From Candidatus Peribacteria bacterium (GTDB lineage: Bacteria; Patescibacteriota; Gracilibacteria; Peribacterales; Peribacteraceae): 59,225 bases of DNA. The translations under genes were made by a program, and so were the position numbers. Numbering within the stretch: position 1 is the first letter of the stretch; every line of letters begins with the position of its first letter. The stretch is from assembly GCA_018652265.1 (NCBI GenBank), contig JABICL010000047.1, positions 1-59,225 on the forward strand, in the 5' to 3' direction. Shown here piece by piece: positions 6,607 through 11,513 of this stretch. The notes below the pieces were generated by a model. That model saw nothing but the letters and a program-made list of their open reading frames with translations, did not search any database and was not told the DNA's origin.

Positions 6607-9600
6607 CTATCCAACTTCGGTAAAATCCAACGAAGTAATCTTTTTCCAGACAATCTGAATCAATTCTTTTAATTCTTCTACTTCTTCATCCGAAATTTGT
6701 ACGTCTATTACAGATCTTTCTTCTTTTGGATTTCCTACAAAATCAAATGTGAAGAGTGATGCAGTATGTGAGAATGAAGGAGATATATCGCATAAGAGCT
6801 TATAAAATGTTAGCTGTCTAAGTAAATTTTCCTCTTTTCGTATAGCAGACTCTGTTTTTCTAGTTCTTCCAGTCTTGTAATCTATTACTTTGCATTTTTG
6901 TCCGTTTACATTGAAAAGATCTATTCTATCTATTTTCCCAGTAATAGGAATTACAGATTCTGTAGAGCTTAATTTATCGGTAAGAGCACCTTTTATAGTT
7001 TTTTCTGTAGAGAGAATAAGAGGAATCTCATTGGTAAGTGATCCATATTTTTCTAATAACTCTTTTCCTTCGTGCATATAATGAGCTCTTTCTTTTTCTG
7101 TGAGAATTGCTTTTGCAAGTGACTCTTCGAATGATTCTAATAAATTGTTCATATCGAATGGCTCTCCTTTTTGCCATGCTCTATTTCTCATTTCTAATGC
7201 ATGGTGAATAGCTGAACCGAAATATAAATAAGGAGCCTTTGCTTGTGGCATTTTTAGTAGATGTGTCCATAAAAACATCTTTGGATCATCTAGAAATGCA
7301 TTCAATGAAGTTACAGAAAGTTCAAATGATTTGATCTGATCTCTTAGGAATGCTTCAAATGCTTCATCTATTTTAAATACAGGTTTCCATAAAGTTTCTA
7401 TAGGCTTAGGAGCGTCTTTAGGATCTACTAATTCTTCTGCTACTAGATTTCCTGCTTCTGCCATGAAAGATGAAACTTGAGCATCTTTTATATTTGCGCC
7501 AGATCTATAATTTTCTGCGAAAGTAAGAATCAGATTATCTTTTGCGCGTGTCATTGCAACATACATGAGCCTTCGTTCATCTTCTTGTTTTAGATTTTTT
7601 TCATCTCTTTCTGATCCATATATCAAATTTTCTGGTAATGAAAATGAAGATCCTTGCCTTCTATTCCCCCAGTTTCCATATCTCACATGTGGAACTAATA
7701 CGAATTTAAATTCCATTCCTTTAGCTGCATGCGCTGTCATGAGCTGGACTCCTTCTTCTTCCATATGAGGAACGTCATATGCAAGTTTTAGTCCTGGCTC
7801 GCTGATGTATTGTTCTAGATCTGAAAGTAATTGAACCAATTTCATGTCTTTTTGTTCATTGGATCTTATTTTTACGTAATCATAGAAAGCATGGAGAACG
7901 GCAATTGTACGTGGATCTGCTGAATCATCGTCTTTTCGTGGTATAAGACCAAAATCCTTAAGTGCAAGTTCTATAATTTCTGGAAGAGTTTTACTTTCTT
8001 TCTGAGCATGCAGTCTTTCTATGATTGAAAATGGAAAATTAAGAACACTAAATTCTTCTGATTCCAAAATAAAAGATCTAAGTGAATTGTGAGTTCTTTG
8101 TCTTCTGTAACTGCACCAGAGTTTGCCTAAGTCCATAGGATGTATTTCTAAAATTTCACATCCAAGTGCCGCGCTCAGTGTGGCATCATTATCTGGAGAT
8201 TCTACTGCTCTGAGCAGAACTATAAGCTCTCTTATTTTTGGATGAAGTATAAGATCTTGTTTCGATGTAAGTATTACCGGAATTTCTGCACATGTTAGTA
8301 CATCAAATAATTCATTTGCTTCACCATTTCTTCTGCAAAGTACTGCCATATCGTTCCAATCAGTTCCTTTTTCATTTTCTTTTCTAAGGATCTCGGCAAT
8401 TGCTGCAAGTTCTGTTTCTGCTGATGGAAAACGCACGAATTTTGGCTTTGCGCCCGTCTTCGTCAGGCGCGTCTGACTACGCCGTGGCAAGCTCATAGCT
8501 TTTAGATCTTTTTCAATTCCATCAATTTTACCTGCCAGTCTATTTTCATTATTTCCAATTACATTCATAGAAGCATCCAGAATTTCCTGAGTTGATCTAT
8601 AGTTTTCCGTAAGCGTTATGACTTTTGCATCTGGAAATCTATTTGTAAATTCGAGCATGTTTGCAATAGAGGCTCCTTGGAATCTATAGATTGCCTGATC
8701 GTCGTCTCCCACTATAAAAATATTTGGAACATGATCTGGAGTAGGTTCTTTTGTGATAAGTTCTACTACTTCCGATTGTGCGCCATTTAAATCCTGATAT
8801 TCATCAGCAAGAATGTATTGATATTTCTCTTGTAATTCAGATAGTAGAAATTCGTTAGTTTTTAAGGCTTCTATTACAAACAAAATCATATCGTTGTAGT
8901 CATACCTCTGATTTTCTATTAGCTCACTGTTATATTTCTCATATATGTCACAGAATTCTTCGAATTGCTTAGTAAGACGAAGGTCATTTTTGTAGACTTG
9001 AGAATTTTTATCTCTTTCTTTTCCAGATGCGGTTGTGTTTATAGAATCTTTGTAAGAGGGGATTAAATCTCTAAGATCTTTTACGCTTATTCCCTCTCTT
9101 TTCATTTCGCTTATTCTCGAGAGAATTGCACTTGCACGACTTGTAACTTGAGTTTTGTAAGCTGGATTTGCATCGGATGGTTTTCCTAGAACAGATCCTG
9201 GCTTTAGATTATTTAGTATTCTTTTTATTATTCTAAGTTGTTCTAAATCACTTACTTGTTCTAGTGCGTTAAATGTTTCGAATATATTAGGATGAGTGAG
9301 AATTATTTCGTTACAAAATCCATGAACAGTATCTATGGTTATTCCATAAGCGTCTGGCCCGATTATCGTTCTTAGACGTTCACGTAATGCTTTTACTCCA
9401 CTAGTAGAAAATGTGAGACATAATATATTTCCTGGTCTCATCTGTGTTTTATTTAAGATATTTGCAGTTCTCATAGCTGTTACCTGTGTTTTTCCTGTTC
9501 CAGGACCAGCTATGACCATTACAGCGCCTTCCAAAGCTTCAACTGCCTTTTTTTGGGCCGGATTAAGCATTTTGAGCAAGTCACTAAAGTGGTTAGTGGT

Positions 9601-9651
9601 TAGTGAGTAGTGAGTAGCTTGCTTTTGCTTAGATGCTGTTTTATTGGGCAT
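6607..9651 (-). CDS. UvrD/PcrA-like helicase fused to a RecB-family nuclease domain
   Basis: A 1014-aa superfamily 1A DNA helicase. Motif I GPGTGKT is at 49-55, motif II DEYQD at 283-287 and QAIYRFQGA follows. After the helicase core comes a C-terminal PD-(D/E)XK nuclease domain (about 815-1014) with GKIDRID at 905-911, VIDYK at 922-926 and the RQLTFY motif at 945. It probably acts in double-strand break or replication-fork repair. The start at 9651 is chosen because TAGAAT lies 8 nt upstream. Residues 12-20 come from a dispersed repeat and 387-400 from another, both in frame. The conserved family sequence begins only at about residue 28. Confidence 0.9.
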   Translation of the reverse strand: MPNKTASKQKQATHYSLTTNHFSDLLKMLNPAQKKAVEALEGAVMVIAGPGTGKTQVTAMRTANILNKTQMRPGNILCLTFSTSGVKALRERLRTIIGPDAYGITIDTVHGFCNEIILTHPNIFETFNALEQVSDLEQLRIIKRILNNLKPGSVLGKPSDANPAYKTQVTSRASAILSRISEMKREGISVKDLRDLIPSYKDSINTTASGKERDKNSQVYKNDLRLTKQFEEFCDIYEKYNSELIENQRYDYNDMILFVIEALKTNEFLLSELQEKYQYILADEYQDLNGAQSEVVELITKEPTPDHVPNIFIVGDDDQAIYRFQGASIANMLEFTNRFPDAKVITLTENYRSTQEILDASMNVIGNNENRLAGKIDGIEKDLKAMSLPRRSQTRLTKTGAKPKFVRFPSAETELAAIAEILRKENEKGTDWNDMAVLCRRNGEANELFDVLTCAEIPVILTSKQDLILHPKIRELIVLLRAVESPDNDATLSAALGCEILEIHPMDLGKLWCSYRRQRTHNSLRSFILESEEFSVLNFPFSIIERLHAQKESKTLPEIIELALKDFGLIPRKDDDSADPRTIAVLHAFYDYVKIRSNEQKDMKLVQLLSDLEQYISEPGLKLAYDVPHMEEEGVQLMTAHAAKGMEFKFVLVPHVRYGNWGNRRQGSSFSLPENLIYGSERDEKNLKQEDERRLMYVAMTRAKDNLILTFAENYRSGANIKDAQVSSFMAEAGNLVAEELVDPKDAPKPIETLWKPVFKIDEAFEAFLRDQIKSFELSVTSLNAFLDDPKMFLWTHLLKMPQAKAPYLYFGSAIHHALEMRNRAWQKGEPFDMNNLLESFEESLAKAILTEKERAHYMHEGKELLEKYGSLTNEIPLILSTEKTIKGALTDKLSSTESVIPITGKIDRIDLFNVNGQKCKVIDYKTGRTRKTESAIRKEENLLRQLTFYKLLCDISPSFSHTASLFTFDFVGNPKEERSVIDVQISDEEVEELKELIQIVWKKITSLDFTEVG
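8452..8492. repeat. Family C palindrome inside uvrD
   Basis: CCCGTCTTCGTC, then a tip stem GTCAG/CTGAC, then TACGCCGTGGCAAGC. It adds about 14 residues (387-400) to the helicase in frame. Copies at 10051 and 15406 have the tip stem GTCCGC/GCGGAC, so the tip differs but still pairs. The stretch is clearly more GC-rich than the gene around it. Confidence 0.8.
9592..9618. repeat. Family D (GTTAGTGNGTAG) repeat in the uvrD N-terminus
   Basis: Tandem-like TTAGTGGTTAGTGAGTAG units. On the minus strand they encode ATHYSLTTN of the helicase. The same unit is found at 10100, 15391, 40046-40090 and inside the peptidase gene at 40221. Confidence 0.8.
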
Positions 9652-9659
9652 GGAGCACC

Positions 9660-9665
9660 ATTCTA
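9660..9665 (-). promoter_or_regulatory. -10 element of the uvrD-like gene
   Basis: TAGAAT on the minus strand, 8 nt before the ATG at 9651. It places the start between two other in-frame candidates (9732 and 9570). Confidence 0.5.
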
Positions 9666-9726
9666 GCATAGCGTTCCGTGATCCGCGGTCAGCATTCCGT
9701 ATGCCAAAGAAACTTGGCATTTTCTC

Positions 9727-9754
9727 TTGCAATCAGGCCTCTCATCTATATCAT
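9727..9754 (+). promoter_or_regulatory. Promoter candidate for an intergenic RNA
   Basis: TTGCAA (9727-9732) and TATCAT (9749-9754) are separated by 16 bp, pointing rightward into a structured region that ends in a terminator. Both flanking genes run leftward, so this would drive an independent RNA from about 9761. Confidence 0.45.
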
Positions 9755-9790
9755 GTGTCGGTCCTTATTAGGATTGTTCTTTTAATTCAT

Positions 9791-9868
9791 GGGAAGGTTT
9801 GTTCTATAGTAGGAGAACACTTCGGAGGTTTTCCCCTCCGTCGACAGGTTCAAATCCTGACTTTTCCA
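9791..9868 (+). tRNA. tRNA-like fold, degenerate or non-canonical
   Basis: Acceptor GGGAAGG pairs with CTTTTCC (7 bp with G-U pairs). The D arm is GTTC/GAAC, an arm CGGAGG/CCTCCG has the loop TTTTCC, and the T arm is CAGG-TTCAAAT-CCTG. The anticodon arm has 6 bp and a 6-nt loop, so no normal anticodon can be assigned. The CCA end is not encoded, unlike the three clear tRNAs here. It may be a decayed tRNA or a tRNA mimic. Confidence 0.35.
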
Positions 9869-9940
9869 CTTTCTCGCCTCGGATCATTACGAGGCATCTA
9901 AAGCAGGAGCTGTGCTTAAGCGCTCATTGCTCCAAGTCTT

Positions 9941-9990
9941 AATGTCCCATTTTTATTGCCGGTAGGTTATCCAGATGGGACATTTTTTTA
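9941..9990 (+). terminator. Intrinsic terminator of the intergenic RNA
   Basis: A 10-bp stem AATGTCCCAT/ATGGGACATT (9941-9950 with 9975-9984) with a 24-nt loop, followed by a T-run. The T-run is on the plus side only, so it serves rightward transcription. Confidence 0.75.
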
Positions 9991-10037
9991 TACAAAAAAG
10001 CGAGCAATTTAAAATAAATAATTACAAAATAAATATT

Positions 10038-10115
10038 CCTTAATTGTTCACCCGGCTTCGTCCGCCAAAGCGGACTACGCCGAGACTACGCCGCGGCAAG
10101 CTACTCACTAATCCT
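10038..10115. repeat. Composite repeat (families F, C and D) at the rpoD 3' end
   Basis: CCTTAATTGTTCA (family F), then GGCTTCGTCCGCC with GCGGAC and a partly duplicated CTACGCCG (family C), then GCAAGCTACTCACTAA (families C/D). The last part supplies the final codons and stop of rpoD. The 60 or so bases left of it (9991-10037) are AT-rich with nothing recognised. Confidence 0.75.
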
Positions 10116-11513
10116 CGCACAACTATCACATTTCCTTATTGCTCCGCCTTCATCCTCATCTGGATTTGGGATTTCAATGAGTGTTCCGATTTTACAGTGT
10201 GGACATGACATAGGCTCATCGAACATAGATCCAGAGTTTAGACCTGCTCGTAAAAATTCTTCATCTGGTAATTCTTCTTTTATAGCCGCAGACCTTGGAT
10301 GGTCGCGCATCTTTTGAAGAACCTTTGCTTCTATCTGTCTAATTCTTTCACGTGTAACTCCAAATTCTTTTCCTACTTCCTCTAGTGTATGACCTATTCC
10401 ATCTTTTAGTCCAAACCTCATCTCTATAATCTTTCTTTCACGCGGAGTAAGGAACTTGAGCATTTCGTGAACGTTCTCTTTCTTTAGCTCTTTGTTTGTA
10501 GCCTCGAAAGGAGAGATTGCGTCTTTGTCTTCTATAAAGTCTCCTAAAGTATTATCTTCCTCAGATCCTACTGGAGCTTCTAGAGAGATAATATCTTGGC
10601 TAATCTTTAGAATATGACGCACCTTTTTTACATCCATTCCCAGCTCTACTGCTAGCTCTTCTACAGTTGGTTCTCTTCCTAGTTCTTGAACTGTGCGACG
10701 TTGCGTGTGTGTAAGTTTGTTTATGGTTTCTACCATGTGAACAGGAATTCTAATTGTTCTTGCTTGGTCTGCTATCGCTCTGGTGATTGCCTGTCTGATC
10801 CACCATGTTGCATAAGTAGAGAATTTAAATCCACGCTCTGGATCAAATTTTTCTACTGCACGGAAAAGTCCAATGTTTCCTTCTTGTATAAGATCTAGGA
10901 AAGAAAGACCACGACCTATGTATTTCTTTGCAATGGAAACAACTAAACGTAAGTTTGCTTCTGCAAGTTGTTGCTTTGCCGATGCATCTCCTTTTCTTAT
11001 TCTTCTTGCGAGCTCAACTTCTTTTTTGGCATCGATAAGAGGAACACGACCTATTTCACTTAGGTACATTCTTACAGAGTCATTACTGATTTCTAGGAGA
11101 TCTACTTCACGTTCTTTTTTTCTTTTCTTAGCTTCTTCTTTTGGTAGGTCTTTGCTTACTTCATCTTCTGGAATTCCGGCTGTTGCGATTATGTGGTTAG
11201 CATCATCTCCACTTTCTGCTTCAGCTTCTTTTGAATCTTTGCTGACCTCTTCTTTTTTCCCCTGTTCACCCTTCTCCCATATGAGTGAATCTTTTACATC
11301 TATAATTTCTATACCTAGGTTCATGAATAATTCATAAACCTGATCCAGTAGATCAATATCATTCTCGATATCTGGCACTCCAACCATGATCTCTTGATGT
11401 GTTACATATCTTTGTTCACGCCCCTTTTTAATAAGGTGCTTTATAGAAGGCGGGAACTTTTTAAGATCATCGTCAGTAGGCTGATAGATAAATTTTCTTG
11501 GATGTGAAGCCAT
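10101..11513 (-). CDS. rpoD: Primary sigma factor sigma-70 with C-terminal zinc ribbon
   Basis: Directs RNA polymerase to housekeeping promoters. Region 1.1 is visible at about residues 24-75. An acidic linker follows, then regions 2 ([23 protein letters not shown]), 3 and 4 ([20 protein letters not shown]). After region 4.2 comes an extra tail of about 60 aa with C437-P-H-C440 and C462-D-S-C465, a zinc-ribbon pattern that I do not know from standard RpoD. The last residues ARISE are encoded by a dispersed repeat. TATAAT lies 8 nt before the ATG. It is 470 aa. Confidence 0.97.

Follow-up and report, generated by a model that had tools for sequence, protein, structure and literature searches.

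The window, that is, the whole stretch of 59,225 nucleotides that was analysed, is one contig (number 13) of the 48 that make up the 1.07-Mb genome of a Candidatus Peribacteria bacterium, the only genome in the collection to represent its genus. In the spacer that separates a uvrD-like gene from rpoD lies a tRNA-like RNA gene on the forward strand, opposite to both flanking genes. The first of these (6607..9732, reverse strand) encodes a UvrD/PcrA-like helicase with a PD-(D/E)XK nuclease domain (Pfam), and its true start probably lies inside the annotated open reading frame, at about 9570-9651. The second (10101..11513, reverse strand) is convergent with the RNA gene and encodes an RpoD-like sigma-70 factor, recognized by Pfam and with orthologues in the family. 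Identified neighbours of the RNA gene are all housekeeping or ordinary metabolic genes, and no integrase was found among the neighbouring genes that were checked; thus no island attachment site is evident. The remnant of an integration site was rejected as a candidate on the same lack of a nearby integrase and because the best alignments contain no long identity to the 3' end of the genome's own tRNAs. Elsewhere in this genome, three more sigma-70-like genes are found on short contigs (C14 and C20; L035 and L036), where they adjoin nearly identical copies of a coding stretch that resembles an oxidoreductase gene.

The core of the RNA gene is a 78-nt tRNA-like module (9791..9868, forward strand) that folds into a perfect cloverleaf, with no mispairs in the stems and 24/24 pairs standard. 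The acceptor stem comprises 8 bp (9791-9798/9860-9867), alternatively 7 bp plus an extra U:A, and carries G1:C72, G2:C71, and G3:U70 (GGGAAGG/CUUUUCC). It is followed by a discriminator A (A73, 9868) with no CCA after it, the 3' end reading A-CUUUCUC. The D arm (9800..9819) has 6 bp, all standard pairs, and the loop AUAGUAGG; the arm at the anticodon position (9823..9840) has 6 bp and a 6-nt loop, UUUUCC; and the T arm (9845..9859) has 4 bp and the canonical loop UUCAAAU. Acceptor and T stems together provide a 12-bp stack (8 + 4 bp), within the 12 or 13 bp typical of an allo-tRNA or tRNA-Sec.

Upstream lies a putative sigma-70-type promoter, TTGCAA-16-TATCAT (9727..9754, forward strand), with 9/12 matches in a consensus scan. 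A shuffled 600-bp region contains on average about 0.9 matches of such quality, a chance frequency, so that the motif is no evidence for a promoter. The position of the -10 element would place the start of a putative 5' leader at 9761 (9761..9790), of which 9769-9775 pairs with 9935-9941 in the minimum free energy (MFE) structure of the whole transcript. Downstream of the module are a second hairpin (9876..9895; GCCUCG/CGAGGC with an 8-nt loop), a possible third hairpin (9902..9931) that is present in the MFE structure and appears only in part in the centroid, and an intrinsic terminator (9941..9990; -19.2 kcal/mol) with a 10-bp AATGTCCCAT/ATGGGACATT stem, a long, partly paired loop, and a T-tail. 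An earlier, sequence-only reading had described this locus as a rightward unit between two leftward genes, with a 78-nt tRNA-like fold, an anticodon-like arm of 6 bp and 6 nt, no encoded CCA, and a T-tailed terminator, and in all these respects it is confirmed. Its promoter is present as a motif but at no more than the frequency expected by chance, and of its two additional hairpins the first is strong while the second is uncertain. The terminator loop and 3' arm (9950-9985) match SLH-type codons (GYPDGTF) of related genomes over 17-20 nt. The GGTTATCCAGATGGGACATT of the terminator also recurs elsewhere among genomes; the four copies read are likewise SLH-type codons in protein genes, and the recurrence was set aside as coincidence; the match of 9950-9985 is probably coincidental as well, and possibly a gene remnant.

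The same anatomy could describe a purely structural 3'-end element, which would protect or terminate another transcript or serve as a barrier that separates rpoD from the promoter region of uvrD. Such an element would suit a position just downstream of and convergent with rpoD, a strong hairpin with a T-tail, and an RNA gene whose promoter is only putative. However, no same-strand gene lies directly upstream (uvrD runs on the opposite one), a U tract is lacking when the hairpin is read in the rpoD direction, and termination does not need a tRNA fold; a structural role of this kind is considered improbable.

Fold stability and chance expectation

The cloverleaf is more than chance. The region 9765-9990 has an MFE of -73.5 kcal/mol (z = -4.86), a value equalled by none of 200 shuffles, and a perfect cloverleaf was formed by 0/1,500 dinucleotide shuffles of 9741-9990. 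A strict cloverleaf scan of both strands of 1.36 Mb from this and related genomes returned 53 CCA-bearing matches of tRNA type, two chance cloverleaves that are weak, AU-rich, and lack the T-loop consensus, and three CCA-less tRNA-like elements. The latter are the module at 9791-9868, an element in another genus of the family (G015), and a second element of the same genome (G000:C44:20692-20766).

For a transcript from 9761, mean pair probabilities are 0.74 for the acceptor stem, 0.81 for the D stem, 0.99 for the anticodon-like stem, 0.93 for the T stem, 1.00 for the hairpin at 9876-9895, and 0.94 for the terminator. The acceptor and D stems fall to 0.39-0.45 when the transcript starts at 9750, and have a pair probability of 0 in an artificial 9700-10000 stretch. 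The cloverleaf thus depends on the start site, weakening in these two stems as the transcript begins further upstream.

Decoding, decay, and selection on shape

By the usual standards for a tRNA the module is a mixed case. The canonical T loop and the fully paired cloverleaf are present; a 5-bp stem with a 7-nt anticodon loop is replaced by 6 bp and 6 nt, and the 3' CCA encoded in the genome's 40 ordinary tRNA genes is missing. The Rfam tRNA model (RF00005) gives 15.2 bits (E = 1.54 for the genome), below the gathering cut-off of 29 bits, ARAGORN calls nothing at the module, and no tRNA-Sec match is obtained there at E values up to 5. Rfam families in the window are limited to three tRNAs, with no match at the RNA gene; the known family that might have spoken against a new RNA did not appear. 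The 6-nt loop and the lack of CCA argue against ordinary decoding, and judged from loop geometry and absent CCA only, the module is probably a non-decoding tRNA-like element. The sub-threshold Rfam score likewise speaks against a decoding tRNA.

An unusual tRNA at work in decoding or suppression in its host, for example a tRNA-Ala whose anticodon arm is altered, would be compatible with the AlaRS-type acceptor, the canonical T loop, and the presence of a CCA-adding-type enzyme, and 8/4 tRNAs with functional acceptors do exist (allo-tRNAs; PMC7609411). The 6-nt UUUUCC, however, is too short to hold the usual U33 together with three anticodon bases and position 37, the Rfam tRNA score is far under the cut-off, and the genome already holds tRNA-Ala TGC, CGC, and GGC. 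A decoding role is very unlikely on these grounds.

Alternatively, the module may be a decaying tRNA pseudogene that has retained its shape by luck, the terminator and hairpins being remnants of the old gene. Related genomes hold CCA-less, odd-armed tRNA-like genes and partial tandem tRNA copies, indicating that tRNA duplication and decay occur in the family; in addition, no relatives of the RNA gene were found, and G015 carries a tRNA-like gene with a 6-nt loop in the same spacer. Decay ought, however, to break stems before erasing sequence. The best alignment of the module to the genome's own tRNAs scores 11.5, the shuffle maximum also being 11.5, and the visible likeness is mostly in the T arm, yet the stems are perfect. 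Neutral decay was simulated by random mutation of the genome's own tRNAs, with substitutions only and with indels and rearrangement left out; the cloverleaf was retained in 17/1,500 cases after 8 substitutions, in 2/1,500 after 15, and in 0/1,500 after 20 or more. Simple decay is therefore unlikely, since perfect stems at shuffle-level similarity were never produced by random substitution, and the pseudogene explanation as a whole is also held to be unlikely. Erased sequence combined with perfect shape may instead be the mark of selection on shape. The interpretation offered in the sequence-only reading is thereby supported in part: among its options (regulatory RNA, tRNA mimic, or decayed tRNA), a mimic within a longer independent RNA fits all of the anatomy, and the decayed tRNA fares poorly where decay is by random substitution.

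Alanine identity and known systems

The acceptor of the module holds the alanine-identity set G1:C72, G2:C71, G3:U70, and A73, and in this it matches the genome's own tRNA-Ala genes and tmRNA. G3:U70 and A73 are the keys recognized by AlaRS and are also found on tmRNA (PMC3968760). By estimate, chance alone would give the two together on a few per cent of acceptors that pair, and the combination is found neither in the second odd element of this genome nor in the elements of G015 and a further genome, G085 (see below). AlaRS does not require the anticodon. Together with the identity set and the CCA-adding-type enzyme encoded in this genome, this makes binding or charging by AlaRS chemically plausible without an anticodon.

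The locus is reasonably likely to be a free-standing small-RNA gene of about 225 nt whose tRNA-like module is maintained but does not decode (a pseudo-tRNA), and the RNA is probably one that uses the tRNA shape for another job, not a broken tRNA. Transcription would begin at about 9761, the module would be preserved by selection on its shape, and tRNA-handling proteins would bind it. The most likely specific mechanism would be binding or charging of the module by AlaRS, as in tmRNA, with charging following 3' trimming and CCA addition; the remaining RNA might then have a regulatory role, or the charged end might be put to a non-ribosomal use. Taken alone, the AlaRS step is a tentative possibility. 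A fuller version is quite doubtful: a lineage-specific RNA in which an anticodon-free module is alanylated and brings alanine or AlaRS to a non-decoding task, a tmRNA-like trick with no tag message. Spare tRNA genes are unexpected in a genome of roughly 1.07 Mb. If the pseudo-tRNA reading is true, the gene would provide a clean test of whether tRNA shape alone is preserved for synthetase binding or charging, the test case being a clear acceptor identity without an anticodon.

Few bacteria are known to have tRNA-like RNAs that do not decode, and the use of most of these RNAs is unclear. The combination of features described here is new; the kind has already been seen in bacteria. The non-proteinogenic tRNA-Gly of staphylococci are tRNA-shaped amino-acid donors outside translation that keep a Gly anticodon and a normal loop size. 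The module shares their tRNA shape, whereas its use as a donor is hypothetical and its anticodon loop is abnormal. The closest analogue, compared by description, is tRNA-Other, a pseudo-tRNA of Bacillus cereus (Rogers et al., 2012; PMC3399842), to which the present RNA is similar in its tRNA shape, its probable place outside translation, its narrow strain distribution, and its being part of a longer transcript (here predicted) with an intrinsic terminator at its end. tRNA-Other differs in its anticodon for Trp, in its position beside a genomic island, and in being transcribed with 5'/3' extensions of more than 500 nt (PMC3399842); the module described here lacks a usable anticodon, is surrounded by housekeeping genes, and comes from another lineage. 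tmRNA (ssrA) likewise has, within a longer RNA, a tRNA-like domain that bears G3:U70 and A73 but no functional anticodon. Unlike tmRNA, the present RNA shows no tag reading frame or pseudoknots and no Rfam tmRNA match, its anticodon-position arm is intact, and its extra RNA is mostly 3' of the module; the genome's separate tmRNA is on another contig (G000:C44). The 12-bp acceptor-T stack, readable as 8/4, and the long D stem recall the 8/4 tRNAs allo-tRNA and selC* tRNA-Cys, some of which also have AlaRS identity (PMC7609411), but there the anticodon arm is accompanied by a long variable arm, and here a single arm stands between the D and T arms.

Relatives and other odd tRNA-like genes

Searches by blastn detected no homologue of the RNA gene in 58 relatives and 73 other family members, and a structure-sequence model of it (R1) detected no relative in 352 other class genomes (353 including its own). 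The sequence-only reading had looked to conservation in sister genomes; none was found in this set, in which the genus is represented by one genome. The matches of R1 in other class genomes were rejected, four being ordinary tRNAs (Cys, Ile, Arg, and Tyr) and three chance-like. Phage and plasmid collections gave only chance matches of 13% coverage, and viral contigs searched with one exact 23-mer gave no match.

In G015 a clean cloverleaf occupies the same rpoD-uvrD spacer in the same orientation (L017, c2763-2834), with a 6-nt loop, no CCA, and a hairpin following. The two elements have in common a short 3' flank, 'TCTCGC + hairpin'. The acceptor of the G015 element is Gly-like (U73) versus Ala-like here, the anticodon arms differ, and in an rpoD tree the two genomes (G000 and G015) are neither close nor sisters. 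Roughly 60 rpoD flanks fetched from other family members contained no tRNA-like element in the rpoD-uvrD spacer. The shared position is suggestive of a common origin of the two elements but short of proof, and the Gly-like G015 element is possibly unrelated. In a further genus (G006), an ordinary tRNA-Met (L007:126-202) immediately follows rpoD and shares its strand. Pattern searches for tRNAs with 6- and 8-nt loops, and for CCA-less tRNAs followed by TCTC, yielded two genomes beyond G000 and G015, namely G085 and G078. The acceptor differs in each of the four, so that the elements are probably independent pseudo-tRNAs.

The second odd tRNA-like gene of the present genome (G000:C44:20692-20766, forward strand; L033:2193-2267) adjoins tmRNA. 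It has no CCA, an anticodon arm that can be read as 5 bp/8 nt (UUUUCAGG) or as 6 bp/6 nt, A1:U72 and U73, and its own terminator with a T tract, and it scores 59.6 bits as a tRNA. Among the 41 tRNA matches above the cut-off in this genome there is no tRNA-Tyr (GTA), for which an intron-split gene or an assembly gap is possible. In five other genomes, partial tandem copies are found directly downstream of intact tRNAs, for Lys in G031 (L153), for Ala in G001 (L158) and G002 (L154), and for Arg in G019 (L161) and G077 (L110). These copies retain much of the tRNA 3' half with CCA, but their 5' part is replaced; the 3' half is identical to that of the parent in G031 and G001, where a GC-rich hairpin takes the place of the anticodon arm. 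The G085 element (G085:C40, L152:1596-1670) is a free-standing, CCA-less tRNA-like gene with C1:G72, A73, and a 6-bp/4-nt hairpin at the anticodon position; it is preceded by TTGAAA-18-TATAAT and followed by a strong hairpin. That of G078 (G078:C67, L212 near 1450-1530) is likewise tRNA-like and CCA-less; its anticodon is CAT and its D arm is unusual.
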